From NCBI GenBank assembly GCA_947494565.1, contig CANLVG010000003.1, positions 186,001-250,000 on the forward strand: a stretch of 64,000 bases of DNA. Direction: 5' to 3'. Source of the DNA: an uncultured Flavobacteriaceae bacterium. GTDB lineage: Bacteria > Bacteroidota > Bacteroidia > Flavobacteriales > Flavobacteriaceae. The position numbers and the translations under genes are program-made. This document shows positions 42,730 to 59,725 of this stretch, piece after piece (the first letter of the stretch is position 1; each line of letters opens with the position of its first letter). The notes below the pieces were generated by a model that was not told where the DNA came from, ran no database searches, and was given only the letters and a program-made list of their open reading frames with translations.

Positions 42730-42748
42730 GGCAAAAAAAGTATTGATT
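42730..42748 (+). promoter_or_regulatory. Shared PUL operator motif, copy 1
   Basis: GGCAAAAAAAGTATTGATT differs from the copy at 59610 by only two of 19 bases, and shares GGYAnAAAAAGTATWG with the reversed copy at 58682. It lies 437 bases upstream of the SusC start. It is a candidate AraC-family activator site. No binding evidence exists. Confidence 0.5.
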
Positions 42749-43093
42749 TTCATCAAAATTTTATTATACATCTGGAGTCTAAATAATTAATTTTACAATA
42801 GAAGTTCTCCCTTATTATTAAAATAGCATTTTTTTAACTCTGAAATTGAGAGTTTGACAATATTCGTTTAGTGCTATTAGTTTCAACAGGGTTTTTAAAT
42901 AGACCGCAGGTTCAATGAGAAAACCCGAACTCTAGTAGTAATCAAAGGGTTAACGAACCCCTTTCTAGAATAAAGTTTAGGTGGAGTTATGATGTTATTA
43001 TCTCGACCAGAAAACCATTCATTGAAGTAATTTTCTTGAAGGTCCATAAAGCATAATCAGGAATACTCTTAAATAGAAATAAAACATAAAAAA

Positions 43094-43121
43094 GGCCAAA
43101 AACGTTGGAGCGTTTTTAGCC
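43094..43121 (+). promoter_or_regulatory. Hairpin in the SusC leader
   Basis: An 11-pair stem with one mismatch (GGCCAAAAACG with CGTTTTTAGCC) encloses a TTGGAG loop, 63 bases before the SusC ATG. It may act as a leader structure controlling transcription or translation. No U-tract follows, so it is not a classical terminator. Confidence 0.4.
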
Positions 43122-43184
43122 AGTATTAATTGATTTTAATCACATTTACTAACATTCTTAAACTAACTAAAATCTTTCAAAATT

Positions 43185-46100
43185 ATGAAAAAAAACATCC
43201 TGTTTTCTTTTCTGGTGAGAATCTTTTTCGGTTTGCGTACCCATAAAAAGATTTTTCTTTTACCATTTGTTCTTGTAGTACTATATGCTAATGCGAACAA
43301 TGATCATTTCGAAAATGAAGAATACACTTCCCGTATTTATAATGTGAAGCTGGAGAATTTTCCAAAGACATTGAAGTACAGTTCGATCCTTTTTCAAACC
43401 ACAATCTCAGGACAGGTTCTAGATCAGAATAATCAACCCTTACCTGGAGCGAGTATCGTTGAAAAAGGTACTACGAATGGTACACAATCTGACTTTGACG
43501 GCAATTTTTCATTGGAGGTTGCCAGCGGAGCTATCTTAGAGGTATCTTATATAGGTTTTTCAACACAGGAAGTTACGGTCGGTTCTCAATCCAACATTTC
43601 GGTGGTGTTACAAGAAAGCGCCTCTGGTTTGGATGAGGTAGTGGTCATTGGTTATGGTACCCAAATAGAGGCCTTGCGAACGGGCTCTGTAGCTACGGTC
43701 AGTAGTAAAGAAGTAACTCAGGTAGCTGTGACCAATAGTGCAAGCGCATTACAAGGAAGGGTTGCTGGGGTAAGAGTAGAGGCAAATGGCGGTGCGCCCG
43801 GTTCTGGCGTGAATGTAGTCATTAGGGGTACCGGTTCTTTTGGTAACGACCAACCTTTATATGTGGTTGATGGCAATATTGTTGAATCAATGTCTTTTAT
43901 AAATCCCAATGACATTGAGTCCATTAGTGTTCTGAAAGATGCTTCATCTGCAGCCATTTATGGAAGTCGTGCATCTAACGGAGTTGTTCTTATAACGACA
44001 AAAAAAGGAAAGGCTGGCGACATACGGATCAATTTTCAATCACAATTAGGGTTCCAATCATCGACCAGTAGACTTGATTTGCTGAATGCCCGAGAGTTCG
44101 CCGATTGGCATAATATGGCCAAAGATAATGATGGTGATTCAAGGGCAATACCTCATGATACCGGTTTTGACCCAAGTATCGATACCGATTGGCAAGACCT
44201 ACAGGTGACTTCGGCTATATTCCAAGAATACAGTATTAATATTTCCGGAGGGTCTGAAAACGCTCAATTTTATGTGTCAGGTCAAGTGCTGGATCAAGAA
44301 GGTATTGTTGTAGATTCAGGTAGTAAACGGTATAACTTCTCGGTGAATACCTCTTTTCAAAAAGGTATTTTTAGTTTAGACCAAAGTCTTATCTTATCGC
44401 GTCAAGAAAACAATCCGAATAACTTTTTCCAGCGTGAAGGTGAAGTACCTCCTACCGTACCGGTATTTGACGAGAATAACGAAGGGGGTTTTGCAGGCCT
44501 AGACCCCAACTTATATGGAATGGCAAGGGGAATCAATTGGTACGGCCGGGCACTTTTGAACGATAATCTCTTTACCACGGATCGTATAGTAGGTTCTGTA
44601 CAACCCCAATTTCAACTGCATAAAAATTTGACATTTAAGACCAATTTAGGCCTTGAATATTTTGTACAACATAATTACAACTTTGAGCCCACTTTTTTTC
44701 AGAGTACTTCGCAAGAAGCGTCCAATGTCATAGCGCGTTTAGAGGAAAATTACACGCGTTCGCTGAGTTTGTTAATGGAAAATACGTTGGAGTACAACAA
44801 CACCTTTGGAAAGCACGGCCTTAACCTTTTAGGCGGGTTTTCAACCCAGAATATCTCAGCGCGTTCAGCGGGGGGCATCGGAACGAACTTTCCTTTTAAT
44901 GATTTTAGAGTATTGGATGCTGCAGATGACAATACGGATAATACTACGGGAAATTTACAGGAAAACGCATTGACTTCTTATTTTGGCCGTCTTAATTATG
45001 ATTATGACGGGAAATATATTTTGAGTGCTACGGTAAGGCATGACGGAACATCGCGATTTCGTCCGGAGAATAGATGGAGCACGTTTCCATCGGCGTCCCT
45101 GGGTTGGCGAGTGAGCAAAGAAAGCTTCTTCCCACAAGATGGTGTGATAAGCAATCTAAAATTACGTGGTAGTTACGGTGTATTGGGTTCCCAGAATACG
45201 GGATCTCTGGCAAATCCTCGAAATTACTCAACTGAGAGTGTGCTAAATGTCAGTAACTTCTATGATTTTGGAGGTGTGGTCCTCGGAGGACAAACGGTGA
45301 ACGAGTTAGCAAACCCAGACTTAAAATGGGAATCGACCACCATGCAGAACTACGGTCTTGATGCCGAGTTTTTAGATGGGAAAATCAGTTTTTCAGCCGA
45401 ATACTTCCAAAATAGGTCAGAAGACATTTTGGTCTTGGTACCGATTCCCTTGAGCGGTGGTCTAGGTAACAATTTACTGAACAATGCGGCTACCATTGAT
45501 AATAAAGGTTTTGAATTTAGTGGTACGTACCGGCATTTTTCGCAAAACGATGGAATTAACTTCGATGCAACATTGAACTTCAATACAATCGACAATGAAG
45601 TCATTGCCCTAGGTGATGGGGTTAACCCTATTACCGGTGGCGGGTACACACAAGGGGGCTTTCAAGCTACCAGAACCGATGTAGGTCAGCCAGTGGCCAG
45701 TTTTTATGGCTTAATTACCGAAGGGGTATACCAAACCCAAGCGGAAATTGATGCGGATGGTGCCACTGCCGCCGTATTGGGTGATATGAACTTTGTCGAT
45801 CTTAATGGAGATGGCGTCATTAATGATGATGACCAGACCTATTTAGGTAGTGCCATACCCGATTTGGAATATAGCATAGCGTTCAATATGAATTATAAAA
45901 ATTGGGATTTTTCTATGTTCTGGCAAGGTGTTCAAGGCAATGAAATTTGGAACGGTAAACGCTACCATCAAGTATTGGATGGTACGAGGGGACTGAAAAG
46001 ACGTGAAGCCCTTGACGCATGGACTCCTCAAAATACGGATACCAACGTACCTAGAGCTACCATTCTAGATTTGAACTTAAACAAAAGACCTTCGGATTAT

Positions 46101-46367
46101 TTGGTTGAAGACGGATCCTATCTACGATTAAAGAACGTACAACTAGGATATAGCTTGCCTACCGATATACTTGAAAAGTTCTACGTCGCCAATTTAAGAA
46201 TATATATTTCAGGTCAAAATTTACTCACCTTCACTGATTATCAAGGATACGACCCGGAAATTGGTCGGCCACTTAATGGTCAAGGAACTCTTTTTGACAG
46301 TGGGGTGAACAGAAGGGCATATCCTCAAAACAAGATGGTTTTGTTTGGGCTGCAAGTCGGATTTTAA
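43185..46367 (+). CDS. SusC/RagA family TonB-dependent outer-membrane transporter
   Basis: The 1060-residue protein is a SusC-type glycan importer. After an unusual N-terminus with two hydrophobic runs (about 5-17 and 22-37) comes a carboxypeptidase regulatory-like domain (about 70-150; ISGQVLDQNNQPLPGASI), then DEVVVIGYGTQ, the plug domain (about 160-280; LYVVDGNIV, ISVLKDASSAAIYGSRASNGVVLITTK) and a beta-barrel to the final phenylalanine. It imports glycan fragments powered by TonB. It is directly followed by SusD (21 bases) and the PUL degradation genes. The substrate is probably a fucose-containing sulfated glycan, inferred from neighbours. Confidence 0.95.
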   Translation: MKKNILFSFLVRIFFGLRTHKKIFLLPFVLVVLYANANNDHFENEEYTSRIYNVKLENFPKTLKYSSILFQTTISGQVLDQNNQPLPGASIVEKGTTNGTQSDFDGNFSLEVASGAILEVSYIGFSTQEVTVGSQSNISVVLQESASGLDEVVVIGYGTQIEALRTGSVATVSSKEVTQVAVTNSASALQGRVAGVRVEANGGAPGSGVNVVIRGTGSFGNDQPLYVVDGNIVESMSFINPNDIESISVLKDASSAAIYGSRASNGVVLITTKKGKAGDIRINFQSQLGFQSSTSRLDLLNAREFADWHNMAKDNDGDSRAIPHDTGFDPSIDTDWQDLQVTSAIFQEYSINISGGSENAQFYVSGQVLDQEGIVVDSGSKRYNFSVNTSFQKGIFSLDQSLILSRQENNPNNFFQREGEVPPTVPVFDENNEGGFAGLDPNLYGMARGINWYGRALLNDNLFTTDRIVGSVQPQFQLHKNLTFKTNLGLEYFVQHNYNFEPTFFQSTSQEASNVIARLEENYTRSLSLLMENTLEYNNTFGKHGLNLLGGFSTQNISARSAGGIGTNFPFNDFRVLDAADDNTDNTTGNLQENALTSYFGRLNYDYDGKYILSATVRHDGTSRFRPENRWSTFPSASLGWRVSKESFFPQDGVISNLKLRGSYGVLGSQNTGSLANPRNYSTESVLNVSNFYDFGGVVLGGQTVNELANPDLKWESTTMQNYGLDAEFLDGKISFSAEYFQNRSEDILVLVPIPLSGGLGNNLLNNAATIDNKGFEFSGTYRHFSQNDGINFDATLNFNTIDNEVIALGDGVNPITGGGYTQGGFQATRTDVGQPVASFYGLITEGVYQTQAEIDADGATAAVLGDMNFVDLNGDGVINDDDQTYLGSAIPDLEYSIAFNMNYKNWDFSMFWQGVQGNEIWNGKRYHQVLDGTRGLKRREALDAWTPQNTDTNVPRATILDLNLNKRPSDYLVEDGSYLRLKNVQLGYSLPTDILEKFYVANLRIYISGQNLLTFTDYQGYDPEIGRPLNGQGTLFDSGVNRRAYPQNKMVLFGLQVGF

Positions 46368-46388
46368 TTAATTAAAAAAAATAGTAAA

Positions 46389-47930
46389 ATGAAAAGCAAA
46401 GTAAAAATATATATAGTACTGGTTTTGAGCTGTTTTTTTATGCTTAATAATTGTAGCGATGACCAACTGGATATTTCAAATCCAAATAGTCCAACACCAG
46501 AAAGTTTTTGGCAAAACGAGGATCACGCAGAAGGGGGGTTAGTATCGGTTTACGCACCACTACCTACCATACCTATGTTTGGAAGGATTTTGGTTGGTAT
46601 TCATTTGATACACCGATCAGATATTGCAAATCCTTTTCCACAATCCAATGTGAATGATGTAGGGGCGTTACAGGTAAGACCGGAAAACCCGCGTCTCATC
46701 GAAATTTATAGTGAGTGGTATAAGATGGTGTCTAGGGCCAATCAGGTAATCAACCGTGTTCCGGATATTGAAATGGATGCGGCACGAAAAAGTGAAATAT
46801 TGGCAGAGGCCCATTTTTTACGTGGTTTTGCCTACTTCTACATCGTTAACCTATGGGGAACCTCTCCACTTATTTTAGACGAGGTAACTGGCCTTGAAGA
46901 CTTGTTTGCTCCCAATTCTACCGTAGAGGCCACCTACGCATCGATTATTAGCGATTTTACGATTGCTCAAGCAGGCTTACCCCAAGATGGATCACTTCCT
47001 AAAGGCGAAGTAGGCCGCGCCACATGGGGGGCCGCTACTGCTTTTTTAGGTAGGTCTTATCTCTATACCGGTGATTTTGCAAGTGCCATAACTGAATTCA
47101 AAAAAGTGATGGATTCAGGAATCTATATGTTAAATGAAAACTATAATGACAATTTTACAGAGGAAATCAAGAATACCCCTGAATCGATTTTTGAAATTCA
47201 GTACTCTGTTGATGGAAACGCAACAGGTTCCTGGGGCGGGGCTGGCGGTGATAGGTGGCGTGCTCAAGCGTGGGAAGCCGATGTAGCCCCCAGGAATTAT
47301 AGTAGTCAACAGAGTTTTAGTGTCAATCAATGGGTCTTAGATCTTTTTCTTAGTGAACAGACAGTTGACGGTGGAGAAGATCCTCGGGCAAGAGCAACCC
47401 TATTATGGGATTATCCAGGAGCAATGATCTATCAAGATGTTTTTGCGGAGCAATTTATGGGTGATGATTTGACACGGGTATGGGCACGAAAATATCTAAA
47501 CTTCAGAAGAGAGAATGCCCTAACACCAGGTGCGTGGGCCGGAGCGCATAACAACTGGAAAATATTTAGATATGCCGATTTACTGTTAATGTATGCCGAA
47601 GCGGAAAATGAGGTTACCGGTGGTTCTCAGGCGGCACTTGACGCACTGAACGAAGTACGTGCTAGAGTTAACATGCCGGCAGTGGCCGGTCTTGGGCAGG
47701 CAGATTTAAGACAGGCGATTAGAGATGAACGAGTCAAAGAACTTGCTATAGAAGGAAATCGCTTTTTTGATTTACTCCGGTGGGGTATTTCCGCAGATCG
47801 ATTTGAACAAAATCCTGAATTTAGATCCAATAGCCAAGGCGTATTTATTCGTGGTCGACATGAGTATCTCCCTATCCCTGCGCAGGATGTACAGGCAAAT
47901 CCGAACCTGGTTCAAAATCCAGGGTATTGA
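46389..47930 (+). CDS. SusD/RagB family glycan-binding lipoprotein
   Basis: The 513-residue lipoprotein has a signal peptide ending in LNNC near residue 22, then the SusD N-terminal part with the ESFWQNEDHA segment and TPR-like helices (LAEAHFLRGFAYFYIVNLWG). The C-terminal SusD domain ends with WKIFRYADLLLMYAEAENE, VRDERVKELAIEGNRFFDLLRWG and the final YLPIPAQDVQANPNL. It captures oligosaccharide at the cell surface and docks on SusC. It follows SusC by 21 bases. The hairpin terminator that follows suggests SusCD forms a discrete, abundant transcript. Confidence 0.96.
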   Translation: MKSKVKIYIVLVLSCFFMLNNCSDDQLDISNPNSPTPESFWQNEDHAEGGLVSVYAPLPTIPMFGRILVGIHLIHRSDIANPFPQSNVNDVGALQVRPENPRLIEIYSEWYKMVSRANQVINRVPDIEMDAARKSEILAEAHFLRGFAYFYIVNLWGTSPLILDEVTGLEDLFAPNSTVEATYASIISDFTIAQAGLPQDGSLPKGEVGRATWGAATAFLGRSYLYTGDFASAITEFKKVMDSGIYMLNENYNDNFTEEIKNTPESIFEIQYSVDGNATGSWGGAGGDRWRAQAWEADVAPRNYSSQQSFSVNQWVLDLFLSEQTVDGGEDPRARATLLWDYPGAMIYQDVFAEQFMGDDLTRVWARKYLNFRRENALTPGAWAGAHNNWKIFRYADLLLMYAEAENEVTGGSQAALDALNEVRARVNMPAVAGLGQADLRQAIRDERVKELAIEGNRFFDLLRWGISADRFEQNPEFRSNSQGVFIRGRHEYLPIPAQDVQANPNLVQNPGY

Positions 47931-47973
47931 TTGAAATGGACAAAAAACAGTTTGTTTGAGTTAGTTTTAGTTT

Positions 47974-48012
47974 AAATAGTCCTCGATTTTTCATCGAGGA
48001 CTATTTTTATTC
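47974..48012 (+). terminator. Rho-independent terminator after SusD
   Basis: A perfect 14-bp stem (AAATAGTCCTCGAT with ATCGAGGACTATTT) with a five-base loop is followed by a T-run, about 45 bases after the SusD stop. It may partly separate SusCD transcription from the genes downstream, letting SusCD be made in higher amount. Confidence 0.85.
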
Positions 48013-48093
48013 TTTAGTTCTTTACAGTAAATTATTATTGATTTCATTTTAAGCATTTTTATCAAATTCACCCTTTTGAAGCCATTTTCTAAA

Positions 48094-51000
48094 ATGTCAC
48101 TTATTACTAAGCTTTCAACTTCTTTAATTGTTCTAATGCTCATGGCATGTGGCGAAAGTGAAGATAAAATCCAAACCAATCTTTATGGATTTGAGAAAAT
48201 AACAGCTGTAACGTCGGGTATATCCTTCAGCAATGATCTTACACTATCCGATACCTTTAACTACAATACCTTTCCATATATCTACATGGGTGCCGGAGTG
48301 GCCTTAGGCGATATCAATAATGATGGGCTTACCGATGTATTCTTGACGGGGAATATGACCCCCAATAAATTATACCTAAACAAAGGTAACATGACTTTCG
48401 ATGATATTTCTAAGGAAGCTGAAATAGATGGGGATAGTAGGTGGTATACGGGGGTCACCATGGTTGACATCAACACAGATGGTTGGTTGGATATTTATGT
48501 GAGTGTTTCAGGCCTGAGCGGTAATACCCAAAACCAATTGTTCGTCAATGACGGTCCTAGCGATTCGGGACAAGTGAGCTTCACTGAAATGGCTGCTCAA
48601 TACGGTATCGCCGATAAAAGTAACTCAATACAGGCAACATTTTTTGATAGTGATAACGATGGAGACTTAGATCTTTATGTCTGTAATTATCCAGTAATAC
48701 CGTTAACCATGCCCAATAGCTATTACTATGAAAAAATGCAGTTACGTAATCCTATTGAATCTGGTCATCTGTTCAGAAATGAAGGAAACGGAAAGTTCAC
48801 GGACATTACGGAGGAATCCGGAGTATTAAATTTTGGCCTTTCTCTAGGTGTGGTGGCCAGCGATTTCAATAATGACGGATGGCAAGACCTATATGTTTCC
48901 AACGATTTTAATGTGCCAGATTACTTTTATATAAACAACGGCGATGGCACGTTCAATGAAAAAATCAAGGAAACCAGTAGACAAACCTCAATGTTCGGTA
49001 TGGGCGTCGATGCTGCAGATTTTAATAATGACGGTTTGATGGATCTCGTGCAGGTAGATATGACCCCTAACGATTATTACCGCTCTAAGACCAACATGGC
49101 AAGTATGGACCCTGAATCTTTTTATGGTATGGTGTCCATGGGATTTCACTATCAATATATGCAGAATAGCCTTCAGGTCAATAACGGAATCGACAATCTA
49201 GGGAGACCTATTTTTAGCAATGTAGCAAGACTGACAGGTATTGCAACTACTGATTGGAGTTGGGCTCCCCTTTTTGCCGATTTTGACAACGATGGTTTGA
49301 AAGATATTGTCATCACCAATGGCATGAGGCTTGATGTCAATAACAATGATTTGCTTAGTACGGAAAACGCCACCTCATTAGTCCGGGAAAAGATAGATAT
49401 GAACAAAGCACCCTCGACACCTATCGAAAATTTTCTTTTCAAGAACAAGGGAGGCTACGAATTTGAAGATGTTTCGGAAAAATGGAATGTTAACTACAAA
49501 GGTTTTTCAAACGGTATTTCTTATGGTGACTTAGATAATGATGGCGATTTAGATTTGGTCATCAATAATATAGATGACGAAACAAGTCTGCTCCGGAACA
49601 ATAGTCAGGGAACTAACTTTTACCGAATAAAATTACATGGCAGTACAAACAACCCCATGGGGCTTGGTTCTAAAATCAAGCTTGTATCAGGTAATACCAC
49701 GCAATGGGTAGAACATAGCCTAACCCGCGGTTTTCAATCCAGTGTAGAACCTATAGTTCACTTCGGATTGGGACAGGAAGAAACCATAGATAGCATCGAA
49801 ATTTTTTGGCCTGACGGAAAGGTAGAATCTCTAAAGAATGTACCTGTCAATCAAACATTGGAAGTGTATTATGCGAATGCGAAAGAAAAAAATACTGAAC
49901 CGGGAAAGCGAAAATTGGCATTTACGGATATTACAAAAGAATCAGGACTGAGTTTTTCCCATACGGAAGATCTTTATAACGATTTCTTGGTGGAGCCTTT
50001 ATTACCTCATAAAAATTCTGAATTAGGTCCGGCCTTGACGGTAGCGGATATCAATAAAGATGGTTTTGATGATTTTTTCGTCGGAAATGCAAGGAACAGT
50101 GCAGGAGCATTATTTATTCAAAACAGATTAGGAGGGTTTGATGAGATGGACGGCCCTTGGAGAGAAGACGAATCCTTTGAAGATACGGGAGCTGTTTTTT
50201 TTGATGCCGATTCAGACGGCGATCTAGATTTGTATGTTGCAAGCGGCGGGAATAATCTAGTAAATAACGCTGATTTTTATCAAGACCGCTTGTATGTGAA
50301 TACGCCTGAGGGTTTTGTGAAATCAAAAGGTGGCCTTCCCCAAATAAATGCAAGTGGACTCAAAGTAGCCCCTATGGATTTTGATGGCGATGGCGATGTG
50401 GATCTTTTTGTTGGAGGAAGGATTCAACCTGGGCACTACCTTCAACCTCCTAAAAGTTATCTTCTGGAGAATACCGGAGGTATGGATCTGACCATAGAAT
50501 TTGTAGATGTAACGGCAAAGATTGCTCCGGAACTTGAAAACATTGGTCTTGTGACAGATGCCTTATGGCAAGACTTTAATGCCGATGGTAAGCAAGATTT
50601 AATTTTGACTGGTGAATGGATGCCGATTACCTTTTTTGAAAATGATGGTAATCGTTTCAACAATGTGACCGGAAAAATGGGCTTTGAAAATACCGTAGGC
50701 TGGTGGAATTCGATAACAACAGCTGATCTCGATAATGATGGCGATATGGACCTCGTTGCAGGTAATCTTGGTCTAAATAGTAAATACAAGAGTACGGAAG
50801 ATTCCCCCTTTGAGATATATGTGAATGATTTTGATGAAAATAAAAAGCAAGATATCGTATTGAGTGTTACCAAAAAAGGGGTTAAACTACCATTAAGAGG
50901 AAGGGAATGTTCTTCTCAGCAAATTCCAATGATCAAGAAGAACTTTGAAACCTATGCATCATTTGCGTCGGCAAGCTTAGATGATATTTATGGAGAAGGT

Positions 51001-51411
51001 ATGCTTGAAAATTCAATTCATAAAAAAGTGAACACTTTTGCCCATCATTGGTTTGAAAATAAAGGAGATGGAACATATATAATGCATGAACTCCCCATTG
51101 AAGCCCAATTTTCATCAATCAATAGCATTGTGGTTTTTGACTATAATGAAGACGCGTATCCAGACCTGTTAATCGCCGGAAACTTATATGATACAGAGGT
51201 AGAAACACCAAGGTCTGATGCCGGTATTGGTCTTATTCTTCAAAACAATGGGCAGAAGGGTTTTGATGCGCTGTCAATGAATGAAAGCGGGCTGCTAGTA
51301 GATAATGAAGTCAAAGCAATAGAGAGAATCAAAGGCGTGAAAGGCGAGGAGGGGTTTATTTTTGCCCTAAACAATGCTGCGCCAAGGTTACTTTCTTTTG
51401 AAAGACAATGA
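48094..51411 (+). CDS. FG-GAP/VCBS repeat lipoprotein with ASPIC/UnbV domain (CRTAC1-like)
   Basis: The protein of about 1105 residues has a lipoprotein signal (LMAC), then FG-GAP repeats (about 30-480; DINNDGLTDVFLTGN, DSDNDGDLDLYVCN, DFNNDGWQDLYVSND and others), an ASPIC/UnbV domain (about 515-592; GLGSKIKLVSG... SIEIFWPDGKVE) and a second FG-GAP series to the C-terminus (DADSDGDLDLYVASGG, DFDGDGDVDLFVGG). Calcium-binding Asp-rich loops are plentiful. Such proteins often accompany SusCD in marine Bacteroidota and may bind glycan at the surface, but this is unproven. The ATG at 48094 is favoured over TTG 48076. Its stop overlaps a possible upstream start of the fucosidase gene. Confidence 0.88.
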   Translation: MSLITKLSTSLIVLMLMACGESEDKIQTNLYGFEKITAVTSGISFSNDLTLSDTFNYNTFPYIYMGAGVALGDINNDGLTDVFLTGNMTPNKLYLNKGNMTFDDISKEAEIDGDSRWYTGVTMVDINTDGWLDIYVSVSGLSGNTQNQLFVNDGPSDSGQVSFTEMAAQYGIADKSNSIQATFFDSDNDGDLDLYVCNYPVIPLTMPNSYYYEKMQLRNPIESGHLFRNEGNGKFTDITEESGVLNFGLSLGVVASDFNNDGWQDLYVSNDFNVPDYFYINNGDGTFNEKIKETSRQTSMFGMGVDAADFNNDGLMDLVQVDMTPNDYYRSKTNMASMDPESFYGMVSMGFHYQYMQNSLQVNNGIDNLGRPIFSNVARLTGIATTDWSWAPLFADFDNDGLKDIVITNGMRLDVNNNDLLSTENATSLVREKIDMNKAPSTPIENFLFKNKGGYEFEDVSEKWNVNYKGFSNGISYGDLDNDGDLDLVINNIDDETSLLRNNSQGTNFYRIKLHGSTNNPMGLGSKIKLVSGNTTQWVEHSLTRGFQSSVEPIVHFGLGQEETIDSIEIFWPDGKVESLKNVPVNQTLEVYYANAKEKNTEPGKRKLAFTDITKESGLSFSHTEDLYNDFLVEPLLPHKNSELGPALTVADINKDGFDDFFVGNARNSAGALFIQNRLGGFDEMDGPWREDESFEDTGAVFFDADSDGDLDLYVASGGNNLVNNADFYQDRLYVNTPEGFVKSKGGLPQINASGLKVAPMDFDGDGDVDLFVGGRIQPGHYLQPPKSYLLENTGGMDLTIEFVDVTAKIAPELENIGLVTDALWQDFNADGKQDLILTGEWMPITFFENDGNRFNNVTGKMGFENTVGWWNSITTADLDNDGDMDLVAGNLGLNSKYKSTEDSPFEIYVNDFDENKKQDIVLSVTKKGVKLPLRGRECSSQQIPMIKKNFETYASFASASLDDIYGEGMLENSIHKKVNTFAHHWFENKGDGTYIMHELPIEAQFSSINSIVVFDYNEDAYPDLLIAGNLYDTEVETPRSDAGIGLILQNNGQKGFDALSMNESGLLVDNEVKAIERIKGVKGEEGFIFALNNAAPRLLSFERQ

Positions 51412-51452
51412 CCAAAATCAAAAGGAAGGGAAAAACATATAATGAGAAAAAA

Positions 51453-53234
51453 ATGATACGATTTATTACATTCCTACTTATGATAAGTAGTCTTGGTCTA
51501 TATACCCAAGACTCTAAAGAAAAAGGAATGGATGAAATGTGGGGCGATCAAAAAGTAATCGATCGCTCCCATATAGGGCATAGGGCTTCGTTATTCGATG
51601 ATGGTAATTATTCAATGTTCATACATTGGGGTATTTACTCGAACATCGCTAACAAATGGAAAGACAAAACCTACTACGGTATTAGCGAGTGGATAATGAA
51701 TCCGAGAAGGGCGGGAATTCCTGTAGATGAGTATATGTCCGAGGCTAAAAACTTCAACCCCGTCAATTTTGACGCTAAGGCAATCACCAAGTTGGCGAAA
51801 GATGCCGGCATGAAATATATTGTGGTGACCAGCAAGCACCACGATGGTTTTGCGATGTATGATTCAAAAAGTAATGACTTTAATATCGTGAAAGCCACTC
51901 CTTTTGCTCGAGACCCTATGAAAGAATTGTCAAAAGCGTGTAAAGAAGAAGGCCTCGGTTTCGGGTTTTATTATTCCCATAATCAAGATTGGACCTTTCC
52001 CGGCGGTAATGGAGGACCAAAAATCAATGACAAAGGCAAGTCCGTAGGATTCGATTATTACTTTAAAGAAAAGTGTCTGCCCCAGGTAAAGGAAATCACC
52101 ACCCAATATGGTGATATAGCCATGGTTTGGTTTGATACTCCTGGGGATATGGAGAAAAAATACGTTGAGGAATTGGTCTCCGTGGTTAGGAAAAATCAAC
52201 CAAATGCCATGATTTCAGGTAGGGCAGGCCATGGTCTTGGAGATTACCTATCGCTAGGCGACATGAATATTCCGGTTAGGAATGTAGACGGATTGTGGGA
52301 AACAGTAGACGTTACCAATGACTCATGGGGATATGCTTGGTATGATGAAAATTGGAAAAGCCCAAAACGTATTCTGAAATCCGTGATTTCTACAGTTGCT
52401 AGAGGAGGCACTTACATGTTGAATGTCGGCCCGACTCCAGATGGAATCATTCCATTTGAAGCGGAAAACGCCTTGAGGGTATCTGGTGAATGGATTAAAA
52501 AATATCCTCAGGTAGTCTATGCTGCAAATGGATCCCCTTGGGGGCGTCAATTGCCTTGGGGAGACGTGACTGAAAAAGACGGAAAGCTGAATCTCAGCAT
52601 TTACCAATGGCCCCTAGATGGAAAAATTCACCTGCCTGGTCTAACAAATAAAATAAAAAGTGCCAAATTATGGGTCAATGGAAAGCAGGAAACCTTAAAG
52701 ACTGAAAAACTAGGAAACTGGGTAAGTATCGAACTACCATCCGAGAGACCAGAGAAATTGGTTTCGGTGGTCGAAGTTGAAGTTGAAGGTACTTTGAGAA
52801 TAGACAAGTTCTTGAGCATAGATCCAGTTTATATAACAACTTTACCGATGGATTTTGCTGAAGCCGAAGGGTGTAAAATCCAAGAAAAAAAATGGATGGA
52901 AAAATTCGGAGAATGGAAGCACATTTCGCAGGCGCAAGATTGGACGAAAACCAGCAAAGTACATTGGGAATTTGAAATCATGGATGCAGGATATTACCAA
53001 ATAGATTTGAACTACGCGGGTAATGGCAGACTCGTTTGGCGCATTGAGAATGAAGAAGCTGCGATGGTTCAAAACCAGCAGAATTCTTCCGAGGTATATC
53101 AGCATTATGAAATGGGCCTGCTAAAATTCGAGAAAGCAGGAAAGCATAGGATTTCTGTCGCTCTAAAAGAAGGCGATATGGAAAGTGCCAGCTTAAAAGA
53201 AATTCGATTTACCCCATTGAAAAGCCTTGAATAG
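51453..53234 (+). CDS. GH29 alpha-L-fucosidase
   Basis: This enzyme of about 593 residues releases terminal alpha-L-fucose with retention of configuration. It has a signal peptide, and the GH29 catalytic barrel with MFIHWGIYS, VTSKHHDGFAMYDS and GFYYSHNQDW. The catalytic nucleophile is Asp 228 in MVWFDTPGD, counted from the chosen start. A beta-sandwich C-terminal domain follows, then about 120 residues of a possible carbohydrate-binding module (FAEAEGCKI ... KHRISVALK). Translation could instead begin at 51408, overlapping the upstream stop. In this PUL it trims fucose from the imported glycan. Confidence 0.93.
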   Translation: MIRFITFLLMISSLGLYTQDSKEKGMDEMWGDQKVIDRSHIGHRASLFDDGNYSMFIHWGIYSNIANKWKDKTYYGISEWIMNPRRAGIPVDEYMSEAKNFNPVNFDAKAITKLAKDAGMKYIVVTSKHHDGFAMYDSKSNDFNIVKATPFARDPMKELSKACKEEGLGFGFYYSHNQDWTFPGGNGGPKINDKGKSVGFDYYFKEKCLPQVKEITTQYGDIAMVWFDTPGDMEKKYVEELVSVVRKNQPNAMISGRAGHGLGDYLSLGDMNIPVRNVDGLWETVDVTNDSWGYAWYDENWKSPKRILKSVISTVARGGTYMLNVGPTPDGIIPFEAENALRVSGEWIKKYPQVVYAANGSPWGRQLPWGDVTEKDGKLNLSIYQWPLDGKIHLPGLTNKIKSAKLWVNGKQETLKTEKLGNWVSIELPSERPEKLVSVVEVEVEGTLRIDKFLSIDPVYITTLPMDFAEAEGCKIQEKKWMEKFGEWKHISQAQDWTKTSKVHWEFEIMDAGYYQIDLNYAGNGRLVWRIENEEAAMVQNQQNSSEVYQHYEMGLLKFEKAGKHRISVALKEGDMESASLKEIRFTPLKSLE

Positions 53235-53247
53235 CACTAAAAATTTA

Positions 53248-54693
53248 ATGATGGATCAGATTGGAAAATCAATAAAGAATATTGTGGTAATAAGCTTTTT
53301 GGGGTGCATATTGCCTTTTTCCTGTCAAACCAATAACAAAAAAGAAAAGCAGGCTCAAAAAGTTGAAACCAAAAATCAACCAAATATCCTTTTCATTTTT
53401 GCCGACGACTGGGGTTATGGGGATCTTGGGTGTTATGGCGCAACCGAAGTTGCCACGCCCAATATTGATAAATTAGCCAAGCAGGGTACCAAATACACTC
53501 AGTTTCATGTAACTAGTGGTGTATGTTCGCCGAGTCGCACCTCGGTCATTACAGGCCATTTTCCAGCGAGACATCGGGTACATGGACATTTTGCGGGTAA
53601 TGAACCTAATGCCAACAGAAATATGCCAAATTGGTTAGATGAGACCCTTCCAGTGTATATGCCGAGGCTTATGCAACAGGCAGGTTATACTACCGCTCAC
53701 TTCGGAAAGTGGCATTTGGGTGGGGGAGGGCTACCGCATGGAGACTTGTCCGCCCCAGAGCCCAAGGTCTATGGTTATGATGAAACCCGGGTTTGGAATG
53801 GAAATGGCCCTACCTGGAAAGGAGACCAGCTATGGCCGACTACCCGGTATATGGATAGTGATAGTACATGGGTACATAGCTCAAGCCGAATCGTGGTTGA
53901 TGCGACTATCGATTTTCTAAAACGTAATAAGAAGAAAGCATCGCCAATGTTCGTAAATCTTTGGTTAAAAGATCCGCATACACCACTTTGGCCTACGGAT
54001 GAACAAAGAACCCCCTACAAAGACCTTGATCCGGACAAAGAAACCTATTATGCAGTATTGACCGATGCCGACTTTCATATCGGTCGTTTGATGAAGGCAC
54101 TAAACGAAATGGGATTGGATGAGGATACATTGGTCATTTTTAGTAGTGATAATGGACCTGCACATGTTCCGCCTGCTTTATTTGTGGGTTCTACAGGAGG
54201 AATGAAGGGACGTAAAGTTGATATTACTCAAGGTGGGGTGAACGTACCTTTTATCGTAAGATGGCCCGGTAGGGTAAATGCGGGAGCTATTGATAGCACA
54301 AGTGTACTGTCGGCAGTTGATCTTTTACCGACCTTTGCGGCATTGGCAGGTAAAAAACTTCCCGTTGATTATCAACCCGATGGGGAAAGCTTTACTGCAA
54401 TTTTCGATAACAACTTGTTTAAACGCAGCAAACCGTTGTTTTGGGATTGGCGTTTTCCAACACAAAGTGCGAGTCGGCCTAACGGTTGGGTCTCGGGTGC
54501 CGTACGCGATGGTAATTGGAAACTATTGGCAGATGAAAATCAAGAGCGTGTTGAACTTTACAATATTTACGATGATCGCTTTGAAAGTAAAGACCTCTCA
54601 CAAGAGAATCCAATAAAGACGAAAGAACTTCTAGCAATGCTAGAAGAGTGGCAGGAGCAGTTACCAAAACGAGGTGAAAGAATAAAAGAATGA
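53248..54693 (+). CDS. S1-type sulfatase, lipoprotein
   Basis: The protein of about 481 residues is a type I (formylglycine) sulfatase with a lipoprotein signal (PFSC). Metal-binding FADDWGYGDLGCYG appears early, and C93 in VCSPSRTSVITG is the cysteine converted to formylglycine (CxPxR motif). GKWHLGGGGLPHG and SSDNGPAH follow as expected. It removes sulfate esters from the glycan in the periplasm or at the surface. The start at 53248 gives the signal peptide; a TTG at 53227 overlaps the fucosidase end. Its stop overlaps the next start (ATGA). Confidence 0.93.
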   Translation: MMDQIGKSIKNIVVISFLGCILPFSCQTNNKKEKQAQKVETKNQPNILFIFADDWGYGDLGCYGATEVATPNIDKLAKQGTKYTQFHVTSGVCSPSRTSVITGHFPARHRVHGHFAGNEPNANRNMPNWLDETLPVYMPRLMQQAGYTTAHFGKWHLGGGGLPHGDLSAPEPKVYGYDETRVWNGNGPTWKGDQLWPTTRYMDSDSTWVHSSSRIVVDATIDFLKRNKKKASPMFVNLWLKDPHTPLWPTDEQRTPYKDLDPDKETYYAVLTDADFHIGRLMKALNEMGLDEDTLVIFSSDNGPAHVPPALFVGSTGGMKGRKVDITQGGVNVPFIVRWPGRVNAGAIDSTSVLSAVDLLPTFAALAGKKLPVDYQPDGESFTAIFDNNLFKRSKPLFWDWRFPTQSASRPNGWVSGAVRDGNWKLLADENQERVELYNIYDDRFESKDLSQENPIKTKELLAMLEEWQEQLPKRGERIKE

Positions 54694-57110
54694 AGAAGGT
54701 AGTACACACCGTATTTTCAGTAGTCCTTTTGTGGATCTGTTTTTCTTGTCAAAAACAGGCGGTTGAAATTTATATTGCTACAAATGGGGATGATACTGCT
54801 TTCGGAACCAAAGATGCTCCCATAAAATCAATTCAAAGGGCCAGAGATCTTTCAATTGCCCTAATCAAAAAAAGCCCCGTAGATATTATTTTTGAAGATG
54901 GCACCTATTACCTGTCCGAGTCGGTAGTTTTTGAAACTGAACATTCAGGTTCCAAAGAAAATGGCATTACATATAAGGCTGCTACTAAAGGGAAGGCCAT
55001 AATCAGTGGCGGAACACTATTGGATTTGAGCTGGGAACGGCACAAAGATGGAATCTATAAGGCCAAAATCCCAGAGGGATTAACGAGTATAGATCAGCTG
55101 TATGTAAACGGTCGCAATCAGCGTATGGCTAGATTTCCCAATGCTAGAGCCGGGAAAAATGTATTTGATACTTGGGATTTAATACATACCAAAGAGCCTG
55201 ACCCTGATAACGATCCCTTAAGTTCAAAACGTATTGCTTCTTATGAAAATCCGGAAGGTGCCTATGTTCATGCTATGCATGCGGCACTTTGGGGCGATAT
55301 GCATTGGTTGGTAAAAGGGAAGACCAAAAACGATAGTCTTATTCTTGAAGGTGGCTGGCAGAATAACAGGCCCTCGGCAATGCATCCGAGATATCGAATT
55401 ATTGAAAATGTTTTCGAAGAATTGGATGCACCACAAGAATGGTATTTCAATAAGACGGAAAGGATGCTTTATTATTATCCCGAAGAAAATATTGAAATTC
55501 AAAATGCAAAAATAGAAGTAGTCCGATTAAAGAACCTTCTTGAATTAAAGGGAACGAAAGAAAAGCCCGTGGAATTCATCTCTTTTGACGGTTTGGTTTT
55601 TCGTCATGCATCACGCAGTTTTATGGAAAACAAGGAACCCTTGTTACGAAGTGATTGGACTACCTATAGAGGGGGAGCACTTAAGTTTACAGGAGCGGAA
55701 AATTGCCTTATAGCCAATTGCGAGTTTGACCAATTGGGTGGCAACAGCATATTTGTAAACAACCATAATAGAAACCTAACATTCAAGAGTTGCTATATTC
55801 ACGATTCTGGTGCGAGCGGCATTGCCTTTGTAGGCGACCCGGCAATGGTACGAAGTCCATTGTTTCGATACGGCCCCCAAGACTACGGGAGTTTAGATAG
55901 AATTCCAGGTCCCAAAGGCGATAACTATCCACAAGATTGCCGCGTAGAAGATTGCTTGATCACCATGACAGGGCGTTTTGAAAAACAAACTGCACCTATT
56001 CAAATTTCCATGTCTTCAAGAATTACGGTCGATCATTGTTCAATTTATGACGTGCCCCGTGCAGGAATAAATATAAGTGAAGGCACATTCGGAGGGCATA
56101 TCATCGAAAATTGCGATGTATTCAATACCGTGTTGGAAACAGGCGATCATGGTAGTTTCAATTCATGGGGTCGCGATCGTTTTTGGACCCCCGATATCAA
56201 GGAAACTGCCCTGCAGGTTGAAAAGGATACGCTATTGCCATATCTTGATATGATAGAACCCAATATTATCAGAAACAGCAGATGGCGTTGTGACCATGGG
56301 TGGGATATCGACCTTGACGACGGTTCTTCTCGTTACCTGATTTATAACAATCTTCTCTTGAATGGAGGCCTAAAAATGAGAGAAGGGTATCATAGGATGG
56401 CCTATAACAATATTATTATAAACAATAGTCTACATCCGCATGTTTGGTATACGAATAGTGGCGATGTGTTCAAGAAAAATATTATTTCAGGAGCTTATAG
56501 ACCTGCTATAATGAGCCGGAGTATTGCTAAAGAGAGGAAATGGGGGAAGGAGTTAGACTCTAATCTCTTTATCACAAACGGGTTTGACAAGACGCGATTT
56601 TTGAAGAACAAAGCTGATTTAAATTCAGTAGTCGGTAAGCCATTGTTCGTGAATCCGCAGGATGGGGACTTTAGCGTTGCTGAAAACTCTCCGGCCTTCG
56701 CAATCGGATTTAAAAATTTTCCGATGAATGAATTTGGTGTTGTTTCAGAGAAATTAAAAAGTATGGCCAAGCAGCCCATAATTCCGTCAATAAATGCCTT
56801 TTCCACGAAAAAAGAAGGTAAGACCTATATTTGGGATACGGCTACCGTGAAAAATGTAGAGACCATGGAAGAACGATCGGCGGCCGGTTTGTCCGATATT
56901 CAAGGAGTTCTATTAGTAAATGTGCCCGGCTATTCAATCTTGGGGAGATCTGGGTTTGAAACGGGAGATGTTATTATTTCATACCAGGGGAAAACCATCA
57001 AAGATTTTGAACAAATTCAAAACCTTTTAAATGAGAATCCAGACTTAAAAGAAATGACTTTTAAGGTGATGCATAATCAAGAAGAAGCTCAACTAAAACT
57101 TAAACTATGA
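54690..57110 (+). CDS. Right-handed beta-helix glycoside hydrolase-like protein (GH141-like) with C-terminal PDZ domain
   Basis: The 806-residue lipoprotein has a CFSC lipobox near residue 20. The start (IYIATNGDDTAFGTKDAPIKSIQRARD), the EDGTYYLSESVVFETEHSGS and IISGG segments, and IDQLYVNGRNQRMARFPN match GH141-type proteins. A right-handed parallel beta-helix follows (about 300-660). Residues about 725-800 form a PDZ-like domain (GRSGFETGDVIISYQGKTIKDFEQIQNLL). GH141 includes alpha-L-fucosidases and xylanases, so fucosidase activity is a reasonable inference. PDZ addition to this fold is unusual. It overlaps the sulfatase stop (ATGA). Confidence 0.8.
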   Translation: MKKVVHTVFSVVLLWICFSCQKQAVEIYIATNGDDTAFGTKDAPIKSIQRARDLSIALIKKSPVDIIFEDGTYYLSESVVFETEHSGSKENGITYKAATKGKAIISGGTLLDLSWERHKDGIYKAKIPEGLTSIDQLYVNGRNQRMARFPNARAGKNVFDTWDLIHTKEPDPDNDPLSSKRIASYENPEGAYVHAMHAALWGDMHWLVKGKTKNDSLILEGGWQNNRPSAMHPRYRIIENVFEELDAPQEWYFNKTERMLYYYPEENIEIQNAKIEVVRLKNLLELKGTKEKPVEFISFDGLVFRHASRSFMENKEPLLRSDWTTYRGGALKFTGAENCLIANCEFDQLGGNSIFVNNHNRNLTFKSCYIHDSGASGIAFVGDPAMVRSPLFRYGPQDYGSLDRIPGPKGDNYPQDCRVEDCLITMTGRFEKQTAPIQISMSSRITVDHCSIYDVPRAGINISEGTFGGHIIENCDVFNTVLETGDHGSFNSWGRDRFWTPDIKETALQVEKDTLLPYLDMIEPNIIRNSRWRCDHGWDIDLDDGSSRYLIYNNLLLNGGLKMREGYHRMAYNNIIINNSLHPHVWYTNSGDVFKKNIISGAYRPAIMSRSIAKERKWGKELDSNLFITNGFDKTRFLKNKADLNSVVGKPLFVNPQDGDFSVAENSPAFAIGFKNFPMNEFGVVSEKLKSMAKQPIIPSINAFSTKKEGKTYIWDTATVKNVETMEERSAAGLSDIQGVLLVNVPGYSILGRSGFETGDVIISYQGKTIKDFEQIQNLLNENPDLKEMTFKVMHNQEEAQLKLKL

Positions 57111-57155
57111 ATTTATAGCCTAGGCTATTTCTTTTAAAACCAAAAAAGTTAAAAA

Positions 57156-58631
57156 ATGAACGTTCGTACAAAAGTATTTTTATCGACCATAGTTGCCGCA
57201 ATTTTAATTGTTAGCTGTAAAAGCGAGGTAAAGACATCCGAAGAAAAAAAGCGTCCAAATTTCTTGTTTGTTTTGGTTGATGACCAATCTCCTTTTGATT
57301 TAAAGACATACGACCCAGAATCCATATTGGAGACTCCGAATATCAATCAACTAGCCAGAGAAGGACTCGTCTTTGATAATGCCTATCATATGGGTTCTTG
57401 GAGCGGTGCGGTCTGCACCCCTTCACGACACATGATCATGAGTGGAAGAACCTTATGGCATTTACCTTCAAGGGGCGAGCAGTTTCAAAATCCAAACGAG
57501 CCAGATAGCCTCGAAAATCAAACGATGGCAGCGGTATTCAATAGGGCTGGGTATAAGACGATGCGAACCTGTAAAAAGGGAAACTCCTATCCAGCTGCAA
57601 ATACACAATTTACTGTGGTGAAAGATGCCTCAAAAAGAGGCGGTACCGAAGAGACCGGTAGTGCTTGGCATGGCAAACAGGTATTAGAATATCTAGGTGA
57701 ACGAGAAACTACAAAAGAGGATGACCCTTTTTTGATTTATTTTGGATTCTCACATCCCCATGACCCTCGCAATGGAACCCCAGAACTGTTAGCGAAATAT
57801 GGAGCCGTAAACCATACTGATACGCTTAACCTCCCTCCGGCCAATGCAAAACAACCGGCATTACAAGATAATTATCTTCCTGCCCATCCATTTTTTCATG
57901 GACATCCTGAACTTCGTGATGAAGAACGTGTAAGTGGCGTATGGAAAAACAGGGACGAGCAAACCGTGCGTAATGAATTAGGACGCGAATATGCCTGTTC
58001 GGAAAATATTGACATACAGTTAGGGAAAGTGTTGAAAAAATTAGAGGCTATGGGTGAGTTGGACAATACCTATATCATTTACACTTCCGATCACGGCATG
58101 TCGATTGGCCGTCATGGACTTATGGGAAAACAAAACCTCTATGAACACACCTGGCGGGTGCCGTTTATAATTAAGGGTCCTGGTATCGCAAAAGGAAAGC
58201 GTGTAAAAGGAAATTCCTATTTGTTGGATGTGCTACCCACACTATGTGATTTGGCCGGTATTGGGATTCCGGAAACGGTCGAAGGCAGTAGTCTAAAACC
58301 TGTAATCGATGGGGAGACGGAAACGGTTAGAGAGGTCATGTACGGGGTGTATTCAGGAGGAACAAAACCCGGGATGCGCAGCGTGAAAAAAGGAGATTGG
58401 AAATTGATAAAGTATGATGTTATGGATGGAACCGTTCGAGAAACACAGCTTTTTAACCTTGCAGGCAATCCGAACGAGTATCTGACCGAGCATGGTAGGC
58501 CCGGGGAAATGGAAACCAATTTGGCCGATAACCCCAAATATGCTGATAAACTGGCTGAGATGGAAACGCTGCTCTTGAAACAAATGGAGCTGCATGACGA
58601 CCCCTATCGCCTATGGAATCAAAGCAAATAA
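57156..58631 (+). CDS. S1-type sulfatase, lipoprotein (second)
   Basis: The 491-residue protein is a second formylglycine sulfatase with a lipoprotein signal (IVSC). LVDDQSPFDLKTY gives the metal-binding aspartates, C87 in AVCTPSRHMIMSG is the modified cysteine, and YTSDHGMSIGRHGLMGKQNLYE and LDVLPTLCDLAGI follow. It differs clearly from the first sulfatase, so the two probably attack different sulfate positions. It lies 46 bases after the beta-helix gene and is the last of the enzyme run, before an AraC regulator. Confidence 0.93.
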   Translation: MNVRTKVFLSTIVAAILIVSCKSEVKTSEEKKRPNFLFVLVDDQSPFDLKTYDPESILETPNINQLAREGLVFDNAYHMGSWSGAVCTPSRHMIMSGRTLWHLPSRGEQFQNPNEPDSLENQTMAAVFNRAGYKTMRTCKKGNSYPAANTQFTVVKDASKRGGTEETGSAWHGKQVLEYLGERETTKEDDPFLIYFGFSHPHDPRNGTPELLAKYGAVNHTDTLNLPPANAKQPALQDNYLPAHPFFHGHPELRDEERVSGVWKNRDEQTVRNELGREYACSENIDIQLGKVLKKLEAMGELDNTYIIYTSDHGMSIGRHGLMGKQNLYEHTWRVPFIIKGPGIAKGKRVKGNSYLLDVLPTLCDLAGIGIPETVEGSSLKPVIDGETETVREVMYGVYSGGTKPGMRSVKKGDWKLIKYDVMDGTVRETQLFNLAGNPNEYLTEHGRPGEMETNLADNPKYADKLAEMETLLLKQMELHDDPYRLWNQSK

Positions 58632-58681
58632 GTCCTCAACGCACAAGAGGTTTCATAGCCGTAAGTTAGTCGGTTGGCGTA

Positions 58682-58697
58682 CAATACTTTTTATACC
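58682..58697 (-). promoter_or_regulatory. Shared PUL operator motif, copy 2 (reverse)
   Basis: On the minus strand this reads GGTATAAAAAGTATTG, matching GGYAnAAAAAGTATWG with two differences from the copy at 42730. It lies 36 bases upstream of the AraC gene start, where autoregulation would be expected. Confidence 0.45.
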
Positions 58698-58733
58698 TAA
58701 CTTGTTTATTATGATATGTTAACCTATAGATAG

Positions 58734-59597
58734 ATGAAGCTCCATTTACTAAATAGATCTAGTATAGTAGATCGTTCTATAAAGGTTTCGCATAATCTGT
58801 ATAAAAACTTTTTACGGGTCTGGCATTTCCATCCAGAATTTGAACTGGTGGCGATAATTCGGAGTTCTGGGACACGTTTTGTTGGAGATAATATTGAACG
58901 ATTCGATAGTGGAGATGTGGTTCTAATTGGGAAAGATATACCGCATATGTGGTTAAATGACGATGCCTATTTTGAAGAAAATTCTAATTTAACGGCAGAG
59001 GCAATCGCAGTTCATTTTGAAAAAGAGTTTTTAGGAAAGGGATTTTTAGAAGTGCCTGAAATGCACCTGCTTTCCAATCTTTTTGAATTGGCCGCTCGTG
59101 GAATACGATTTTTGAATGTCAAAGAGCAACTGCTAAATGAATTCAATATCTTACCCTATCTTGACCCTACTGCGCAAGTGATAAAAGTAATTGATATTTT
59201 GAGTCATTTAAGTAAGCACAAAGATTATAGGATTATATGCAGTAGTACCTTCGTAAATTCGTTGCACAGGACAGAAAATAGGCGTTTAAATAAAATCTAT
59301 GAGTACGTTTTTGAAAATTTTGACAAACCCATTGGTTCTAGCAATGTGGCGGAAATTATTGGTATGAATAAATCTGCTTTTAGTCGTTTTTTTAAAAAGA
59401 CCCATCGAAAACCCTTCACCAAGTACCTAAACGAGATTAGAATAGGTTATGCTTGTAAATTATTGATTGAAAACAGAGAGAATATTACTTCGATTGCATA
59501 TTTATCAGGATTTAATAATGTATCAAATTTTAACAGACAATTTAAAATAATCAAGGGGAAGACTCCGTCATTGTATTTAAAAGATTTCAAAGACTAG
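58734..59597 (+). CDS. AraC family transcriptional regulator of the PUL
   Basis: The 287-residue protein has a cupin sensory N-terminal part (HFHPEFELVAIIRSSG...GDVVLIGKDIPHMWLND) and a C-terminal AraC double helix-turn-helix (SSNVAEIIGMNKSAFSRFFKKTHRKPF, then SIAYLSGFNNVSNFNRQFKIIKGKTPSLYLKDF). Gene order places it between the sulfatase and fuconate dehydratase genes, so it probably senses fucose or a derivative. A shared motif lies before it, after it and far upstream of SusC, which suggests it controls all three. This regulatory link is inference. Confidence 0.9.
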   Translation: MKLHLLNRSSIVDRSIKVSHNLYKNFLRVWHFHPEFELVAIIRSSGTRFVGDNIERFDSGDVVLIGKDIPHMWLNDDAYFEENSNLTAEAIAVHFEKEFLGKGFLEVPEMHLLSNLFELAARGIRFLNVKEQLLNEFNILPYLDPTAQVIKVIDILSHLSKHKDYRIICSSTFVNSLHRTENRRLNKIYEYVFENFDKPIGSSNVAEIIGMNKSAFSRFFKKTHRKPFTKYLNEIRIGYACKLLIENRENITSIAYLSGFNNVSNFNRQFKIIKGKTPSLYLKDFKD

Positions 59598-59609
59598 AAT
59601 ACGGTTTAA

Positions 59610-59628
59610 GGCACAAAAAGTATAGATT
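59610..59628 (+). promoter_or_regulatory. Shared PUL operator motif, copy 3
   Basis: GGCACAAAAAGTATAGATT matches the SusC-upstream copy in 17 of 19 bases. It lies 98 bases upstream of the fuconate dehydratase start, in the 128-base gap after the AraC gene. Confidence 0.5.
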
Positions 59629-59725
59629 GAAGTAAGCTTTTAGTTAGTTTTATGACACTTAATCTTTTAACTTAAAACAGGTAAGTACGGGATTCTTATC
59701 CGGCCAAAAATACTTAATATTCCAC

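Follow-up and report, generated by a model that had tools for sequence, protein, structure and literature searches.

We analyzed a window of 64,000 nucleotides from the genome of an uncultured Flavobacteriaceae bacterium (GenBank assembly GCA_947494565.1, contig CANLVG010000003.1, positions 186,001 to 250,000 of the forward strand), in which a 16-bp motif, GGYANAAAAAGTATWG, recurs within a fucose-type polysaccharide utilization locus (PUL). From the comparison of sequences we conclude that this motif is the promoter-distal half, here named box A, of a longer predicted operator-promoter element, and we consider it likely that this element combines the operator of an AraC-type, FucR-like activator with a core promoter. 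How marine bacteria switch on the degradation of fucoidan is little known.

The motif in the window and in related genomes

An earlier note on this DNA had reported three intergenic copies of the motif, and all three match GGYANAAAAAGTATWG exactly and lie between genes: site 1 (box A GGCAAAAAAAGTATTG, 42730-42745, + strand) upstream of susC, site 2 (58682-58697, − strand), with 36 bases between it and the ATG of araC, and site 3 (box A GGCACAAAAAGTATAG, 59610-59625, + strand) upstream of the gene encoding fuconate dehydratase. Sites 1 and 3 are identical in 17 of 19 bases, as had also been noted. When up to two mismatches are allowed the window contains four matches, against a mean of 0.96 in shuffled sequences, none of 100 shuffles reaching four; when the intergenic regions were shuffled 200 times, one trial gave a 17/19 identity for the pair of regions around sites 1 and 3, and none reached the three-way score. 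The latter test is post hoc, since it was applied to a pattern already identified; therefore, it is not relied upon, and the main support for the motif is its conservation in relatives.

Orthologs of the window AraC were sought in 299 genomes of the family and were found across many of its genera. Regions of 12-20 kb were fetched around 40 of them; genomes G011 and G050 gave two loci each, three loci are shorter than 19 kb, and one of the 40 is a paralog from the genome under study, located on contig C17. From the 250 bases upstream of araC, with the window excluded and 29 of the 40 loci contributing, a matrix was trained that converged on GGCAAAAAWAGTATYR and recovered sites 1, 2 and 3 with 22.9, 15.4 and 14.5 bits, respectively; related species do carry the motif. 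In the 40 loci together with 28 kb of the window, 56 intergenic matches exceeded 14 bits vs 4 for the reversed matrix, and the genic matches were 21 vs 22. The count of 56 is partly circular given that many of these matches were training sites; the held-out tests described below are not circular.

Architecture of the composite element

Alignment of the flanks of 56 sites revealed conserved columns at positions 22-24 (GGT), 34-38 (GGTAG) and 59-66 (TAnnTTTG). The composite is thus a rigid element of about 66 bp, formed by box A (GGCAAAAAWAGTATYR), box B (GGT-N9-GGTAG) and a −7 element (TAnnTTTG). With at most one mismatch, TAnnTTTG is present at position 59 in 43 of the 56 sites, 26 of them perfect, and at any other offset in 10 or fewer; likewise, GGTAG is present at position 34 in 38 sites, the next best offset reaching 10. 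The distance from the start of GGC in box A to the start of GGT in box B is 21 bp, and 20 bp separate the end of box B from the −7 element. Beyond GGY the two halves are weakly alike, and they are not called a clean direct repeat here. In 51 of the 56 cases the next gene runs along the direction of the site.

According to passages of PMC9723704 and PMC2483708, the housekeeping sigma factor of flavobacteria has TAnnTTTG as its −7 box; hence, box B covers the −33 region. The −7 element matches this sigma-A box across the family, and in the window it does so with one mismatch at site 1 (TAATTTTA, 42788-42795, + strand) and two at site 3 (TAACTTAA, 59668-59675, + strand), in both cases at the family's fixed distance. 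Box B of site 3 (59631-59647, + strand) includes AGT at 59631-59633 and GTTAG at 59643-59647, the latter with one mismatch to GGTAG, and the place of box B at site 1 (42751-42767, + strand) shows CAT and ATTAT in place of GGT and GGTAG (3 mismatches). Judged by sequence, the arrangement is that of a class II activator promoter, with the predicted activator site over the −33/−35 region and at a fixed distance from the −7 element.

The proposal of the earlier note, i.e. an operator that joins susCD, the AraC gene and the fuconate dehydratase gene in one regulon, is supported by the comparison with relatives and was refined by it: the operator idea holds, the motif turns out to be half of a longer operator-promoter element, and site 2 is different in kind. 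A chance similarity between sites 1 and 3 was also considered, and rejected on the basis of the intergenic excess, the fixed spacing and the recovery of both sites by the composite built without the window.

Specificity of box A and of the composite

In a pattern scan of the whole genome (5.39 Mb), the exact 16-bp pattern occurs three times, always at this locus; with one mismatch there are 16 further matches vs 12 for the reversed-pattern control, and a stricter consensus of box A, drawn from the family, has 4 matches vs 3 when reversed. The 16-mer alone is therefore not specific, and its use as a stand-alone genome scanner was rejected. At none of the 16 one-mismatch loci does the composite exceed 8 bits, and it is absent from the box-A-like matches on contigs C5 and C9.

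The composite matrix was built from 39 training sites, none of which belongs to the window. Along the 64-kb window, and above 5 bits, this matrix detected only site 1 (27.7) and site 3 (27.0), and the reversed matrix detected none. The composite exceeds 18 bits in 13 of 14 clade loci that were held out of training, and in 3 of 20 loci of more distant AraC homologs, at 21.3-24.5 bits; L122, one of these 20, branches inside the clade and does not exceed 18 bits. We also examined 80 loci from named records, which include Maribacter, Allomuricauda, Gelidibacter, Algibacter, Polaribacter, Aestuariibaculum, Wenyingzhuangia and Lutibacter. The composite was present in 23 of the 25 loci with an AraC of at least 47% identity (L209 and L224 are the misses) and in none of the 55 below that value; 5 of the 25 were already in earlier sets, and without them the count is 18 of 20.

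Searched as a pattern with up to two mismatches, the composite has 72 matches in 41 of the 299 family genomes and the reversed pattern has none; the two promoters of the window are too weak for this pattern. Genomes with an AraC of the clade (E ≤ 1e-80) have the composite in 39 of 47 cases, and the other genomes in 2 of 252 (G080 and G289). Some of these genomes also contributed to the pattern, which makes the figure of 39/47 partly circular; this does not apply to the 250 clean negatives or to the empty control. Outside the family, 246 genomes from 15 families within the same order contained no match. In the genome under study, a looser pattern (box A plus −7 element, one mismatch) detected site 1, site 3, the C17 locus and one place on contig C12, and its reversed version detected 2. 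Separately, a record titled as a Saprospiraceae metagenome-assembled genome (L203) carries a 62% identical AraC and a composite of 39.0 bits, a case of either gene transfer or wrong binning.

Given that box A is rich in A and that its single-mismatch matches in the genome are at control level, the motif could be a chance A-tract, or a general AT-rich feature upstream of promoters, and no operator of this AraC. We regard this explanation as very improbable in view of the conservation at fixed spacing, the reversed controls at or near zero, the co-occurrence with one AraC clade and the lack of matches in the other families of the order.

The site upstream of araC

Site 2 is a TATAC variant of box A (ATACTTTTTATAC at 58684-58696 on the + strand). 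In its own direction it is followed by neither box B nor a −7 element, and the neighbour on that side is the 3' end of an oppositely read sulfatase gene; on these grounds, a promoter toward the upstream neighbour was rejected. In L056, L061 and L062, where the reversed box A upstream of araC is oriented toward a divergent susC, box B and the −7 element accompany it; in L072, L076, L077, L082, L087 and L088 it is found alone, as in the window. Of 55 loci examined, 33 have a box, and in 12 of these a −7-like element lies at +18, counted from the reversed box A toward araC; other offsets reach at most 4, and the window is not among the 12. Such a position implies that box A would sit on the −33 region of araC itself. 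With up to one mismatch, ATACTTTTTATAC is found 27-45 bases before the ATG in L050, L054, L063, L203 and L205, and 65 bases before it in L064 (L202 and L206 are the same contigs as L050 and L054 in this count); as a control, the reversed pattern at two mismatches matches 3 upstream stretches. Site 2 is thus a conserved variant, and it probably acts as an autoregulatory operator.

Proposed mode of regulation

We infer that the AraC protein, once it has bound fucose or a product of fucose breakdown, would occupy box A and box B and recruit RNA polymerase to the −7 element, i.e. class II activation. From site 1 it would switch on susCD and the genes behind, and from site 3 the gene of fuconate dehydratase; at site 2, which is reversed, limited to box A and close to the promoter of araC, its role would probably be autoregulation.

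The location of box B over the −33 region, and the −7-like element at +18 in the 12 loci mentioned above, would also suit a repressor; such a protein would keep RNA polymerase off the −33 region until the sugar causes its release. This possibility seems quite improbable to us, since at the targets box B takes the place of the expected −33 TTTG, which suggests promoters that need help, and since most AraC-type sugar regulators are activators.

The AraC protein and its paralog

The AraC-family regulator of the window (58734-59597, + strand) has 287 amino acids. Its C-terminal region contains an AraC-type helix-turn-helix (HTH) domain (HTH_18, 67 bits vs a cut-off of 33.6), and in the structural model (predicted local distance difference test 81.3, predicted template-modelling score 0.58) two HTH units follow an N-terminal cupin-like β barrel. 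Foldseek matched it to full-length AraC-family proteins and to the sugar domains of AraC and RhaR; the full-length template-modelling (TM) score is about 0.35, and consequently the domain arrangement is uncertain. In a tree of 74 proteins, the window AraC groups with those of L050, L054 and L063 (99/89) inside the clade, across which the HTH residues are well conserved, the C17 paralog included.

This paralog, 50% identical to the window AraC, has its gene close to one end of contig C17, next to a perfect composite, and it probably controls the main cytosolic fucose operon of this genome. It could be argued that the sites of the window, which are weaker than the composite adjoining the C17 regulator, are bound mainly by this canonical protein, whose HTH region is similar to that of the window AraC, the latter having drifted to another role. 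We consider this unlikely, because in L050, L051, L052, L053 and L055 the araC gene that is orthologous to that of the window lies immediately next to a good composite, so that the branch of the window AraC keeps the same operator.

Predicted regulon

The predicted target of site 1 is susC (43185-46367, + strand; TIGR04056, 874.9 bits), behind which lies the gene of a SusD-like lipoprotein (46389-47930, + strand) whose scores fall short of the curated cut-offs set for the exception models. The PUL also encodes a GH29 alpha-L-fucosidase (51408-53234, + strand; 1033 bits to the solved GH29 enzyme 9rzx). The predicted target of site 3 encodes an L-fuconate dehydratase of the enolase superfamily (59726-61069, + strand), which is closely related to the solved L-fuconate dehydratase 1yey (E 4.3e-173).

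Of the 72 composite sites, 20 were fetched for their distance from araC; at least three further distant sites (G080, G289, G240) were left out. Sixteen of the 20 head operons that contain genes of fuconate dehydratase or of further oxidative fucose enzymes, fucosidase-like genes, sulfatase or susC/susD genes, or a set of extracytoplasmic function (ECF) sigma/anti-sigma/susC genes. The labels come from BLAST to reference genes at 1e-8, and those of GH29 (25-33% identity) and sulfatase (25-34%) are rough. In L050, the element is located between araC and the fuconate dehydratase gene and heads a run of genes for a short-chain dehydrogenase, an FAA hydrolase, a fuconolactonase-like amidohydrolase, a second short-chain dehydrogenase, FucP (TIGR00885, above cut-off), a mutarotase and an FMN-dependent dehydrogenase. 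In L077 the element precedes an L-fucose dehydrogenase gene (NF052481, above cut-off), and in L073 genes for lactate oxidation of the LutA/LutB type are near the regulator, as judged from Pfam domains, with the LutB model TIGR00273 just under its cut-off. The gene set matches the oxidative L-fucose route to pyruvate and L-lactate. The first steps of this route are described in passages of PMC5507952.

In three loci (L058, L059 and L182, labelled from models or BLAST, the second by gene size only) the element precedes genes of an ECF sigma factor and a FecR-like anti-sigma factor that are followed by susC; in these genomes, the regulator may act on uptake via a sigma-factor relay. In L075 (8180-9226, − strand) it precedes a 2-dehydro-3-deoxygluconate kinase-like gene, hence the clade may include regulators for other sugar acids.

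The genome under study encodes FucP and L-fucose dehydrogenase at the end of contig C1 (L106), away from the window and with no site of their own. Their order resembles that of L086 and L089, where these genes follow the gene that in the genome under study comes behind the C17 element; the C1 genes may lie behind the C17 element across an assembly gap. The gene order of L106 (13098-19755) and of L080 suggests that the ends of C1 and C17 adjoin, with the fucose operon split by the gap.

Several observations weigh against the assignment of box A and its composite to this regulator. The scores of both window sites are under those of all 39 training sites (33.8-58.8 bits), and box B of site 1 is degenerate. 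Site 1 is located 439 bases before the ATG of susC, vs 156-242 in six examined loci where the element precedes a SusC-labelled gene. Box A alone exceeds 15 bits in 14 of 14 clade loci and also in 10 of 20 control loci. At two mismatches, 8 of the 47 genomes that bear the clade lack the composite, and two genomes have the composite without the clade. Finally, 4 of the 20 distant copies (L184, L188, L190, L192) do not head genes of the kinds listed above, and in three of these the next gene is in the opposite orientation.

In a broader and only tentative interpretation, which we hold as possible though on balance doubtful, one operator-promoter code read by a duplicated AraC would define a fucoidan/L-fucose regulon throughout the Flavobacteriaceae, from uptake across the outer membrane, with the ECF sigma/anti-sigma relay as an intermediate in some genomes, to the oxidation of lactate as the end product. 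In the present genome the PUL-borne paralog would have branched off, its sites being weaker and its autoregulatory operator of the TATAC type, and uptake and catabolism would then answer to different thresholds of one signal.

Comparison with known systems

In E. coli AraC (araI1-I2) and other class II members of the AraC family, two half-sites about 21 bp apart are located just upstream of the −33/−35 region and overlap it. The system described here shares this spacing and location, as well as a protein with a cupin and a double HTH, and among the Foldseek matches is the AraC sugar domain with D-fucose or L-arabinose (2aac, 2arc). In contrast, the operator sequence is other, its second half-site weakly resembles the first, the −7 element is flavobacterial, and there is no known looping site.

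Within the Bacteroidetes, passages of PMC3878776 and PMC3870299 describe motifs with two sites about 21 bp apart for hybrid two-component systems (HTCS) and AraC-type rhamnose regulators, the HTCS_Man motif being formed by two 16-bp sites with a 5-bp spacer. These regulators, from Bacteroides, also have AraC-type DNA-binding domains; however, the HTCS are membrane-anchored sensor kinases and RhaR serves rhamnose, whereas the window protein is of the soluble AraC type, with 287 residues, in which only HTH models match in Pfam and the periplasmic sensor, kinase and receiver domains of HTCS are absent. Bacteroides FucR (BT1272) also controls the use of L-fucose, according to passages of PMC3878776, but it belongs to the GntR family and acts on a single fucRIAKUP operon; the window regulator is assigned to the AraC family by HTH_18, not to GntR, and is associated with the oxidative fuconate route. 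A further parallel is CgrA (ZGAL_3159) of Zobellia galactanivorans, an AraC-family gene of an algal PUL. In this case susCD are far away in the same carrageenan-induced regulon, and a deletion revealed positive regulation; the sugar is carrageenan instead of fucose, and the passages covered of PMC5698469 give no operator motif.

In the literature covered, partly in excerpts and with most subscription journals and RegPrecise outside its scope, neither an AraC-type fucose regulator nor this motif was found for flavobacteria. The kind of gene control proposed here is well known and ordinary, and this regulon would be a new example of it. With its strict geometry, the regulator-operator pair allows promoter scans to locate gene sets for fucose and fucoidan, even where no regulator is nearby, and the element supplies a candidate fucose-responsive promoter. 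Cultured genera that hold the pair, e.g. Maribacter, Gelidibacter and Algibacter, allow these predictions to be tested.

Other features of the window

Within the PUL there are also genes for an FG-GAP/UnbV protein of 1111 amino acids (48076-51411) and for a β-helix protein with a C-terminal PDZ-like match (54690-57110), homologs of which recur in related loci. A hairpin recognized by eye (GGCcAAAAACG...CGTTTTTaGCC, 43087-43121), about 65 bases before the ATG of susC, enters a T-run on the − strand and resembles a terminator against antisense transcripts. In an Rfam scan of the window, no family reached its gathering score. Beyond the fuconate dehydratase gene, a 330-residue protein without Pfam or NCBIfam match (61826-62818, − strand) adjoins one of 376 residues (62830-63960, − strand) with an ORC-CDC6-like match (PF24389, 83.9 bits).

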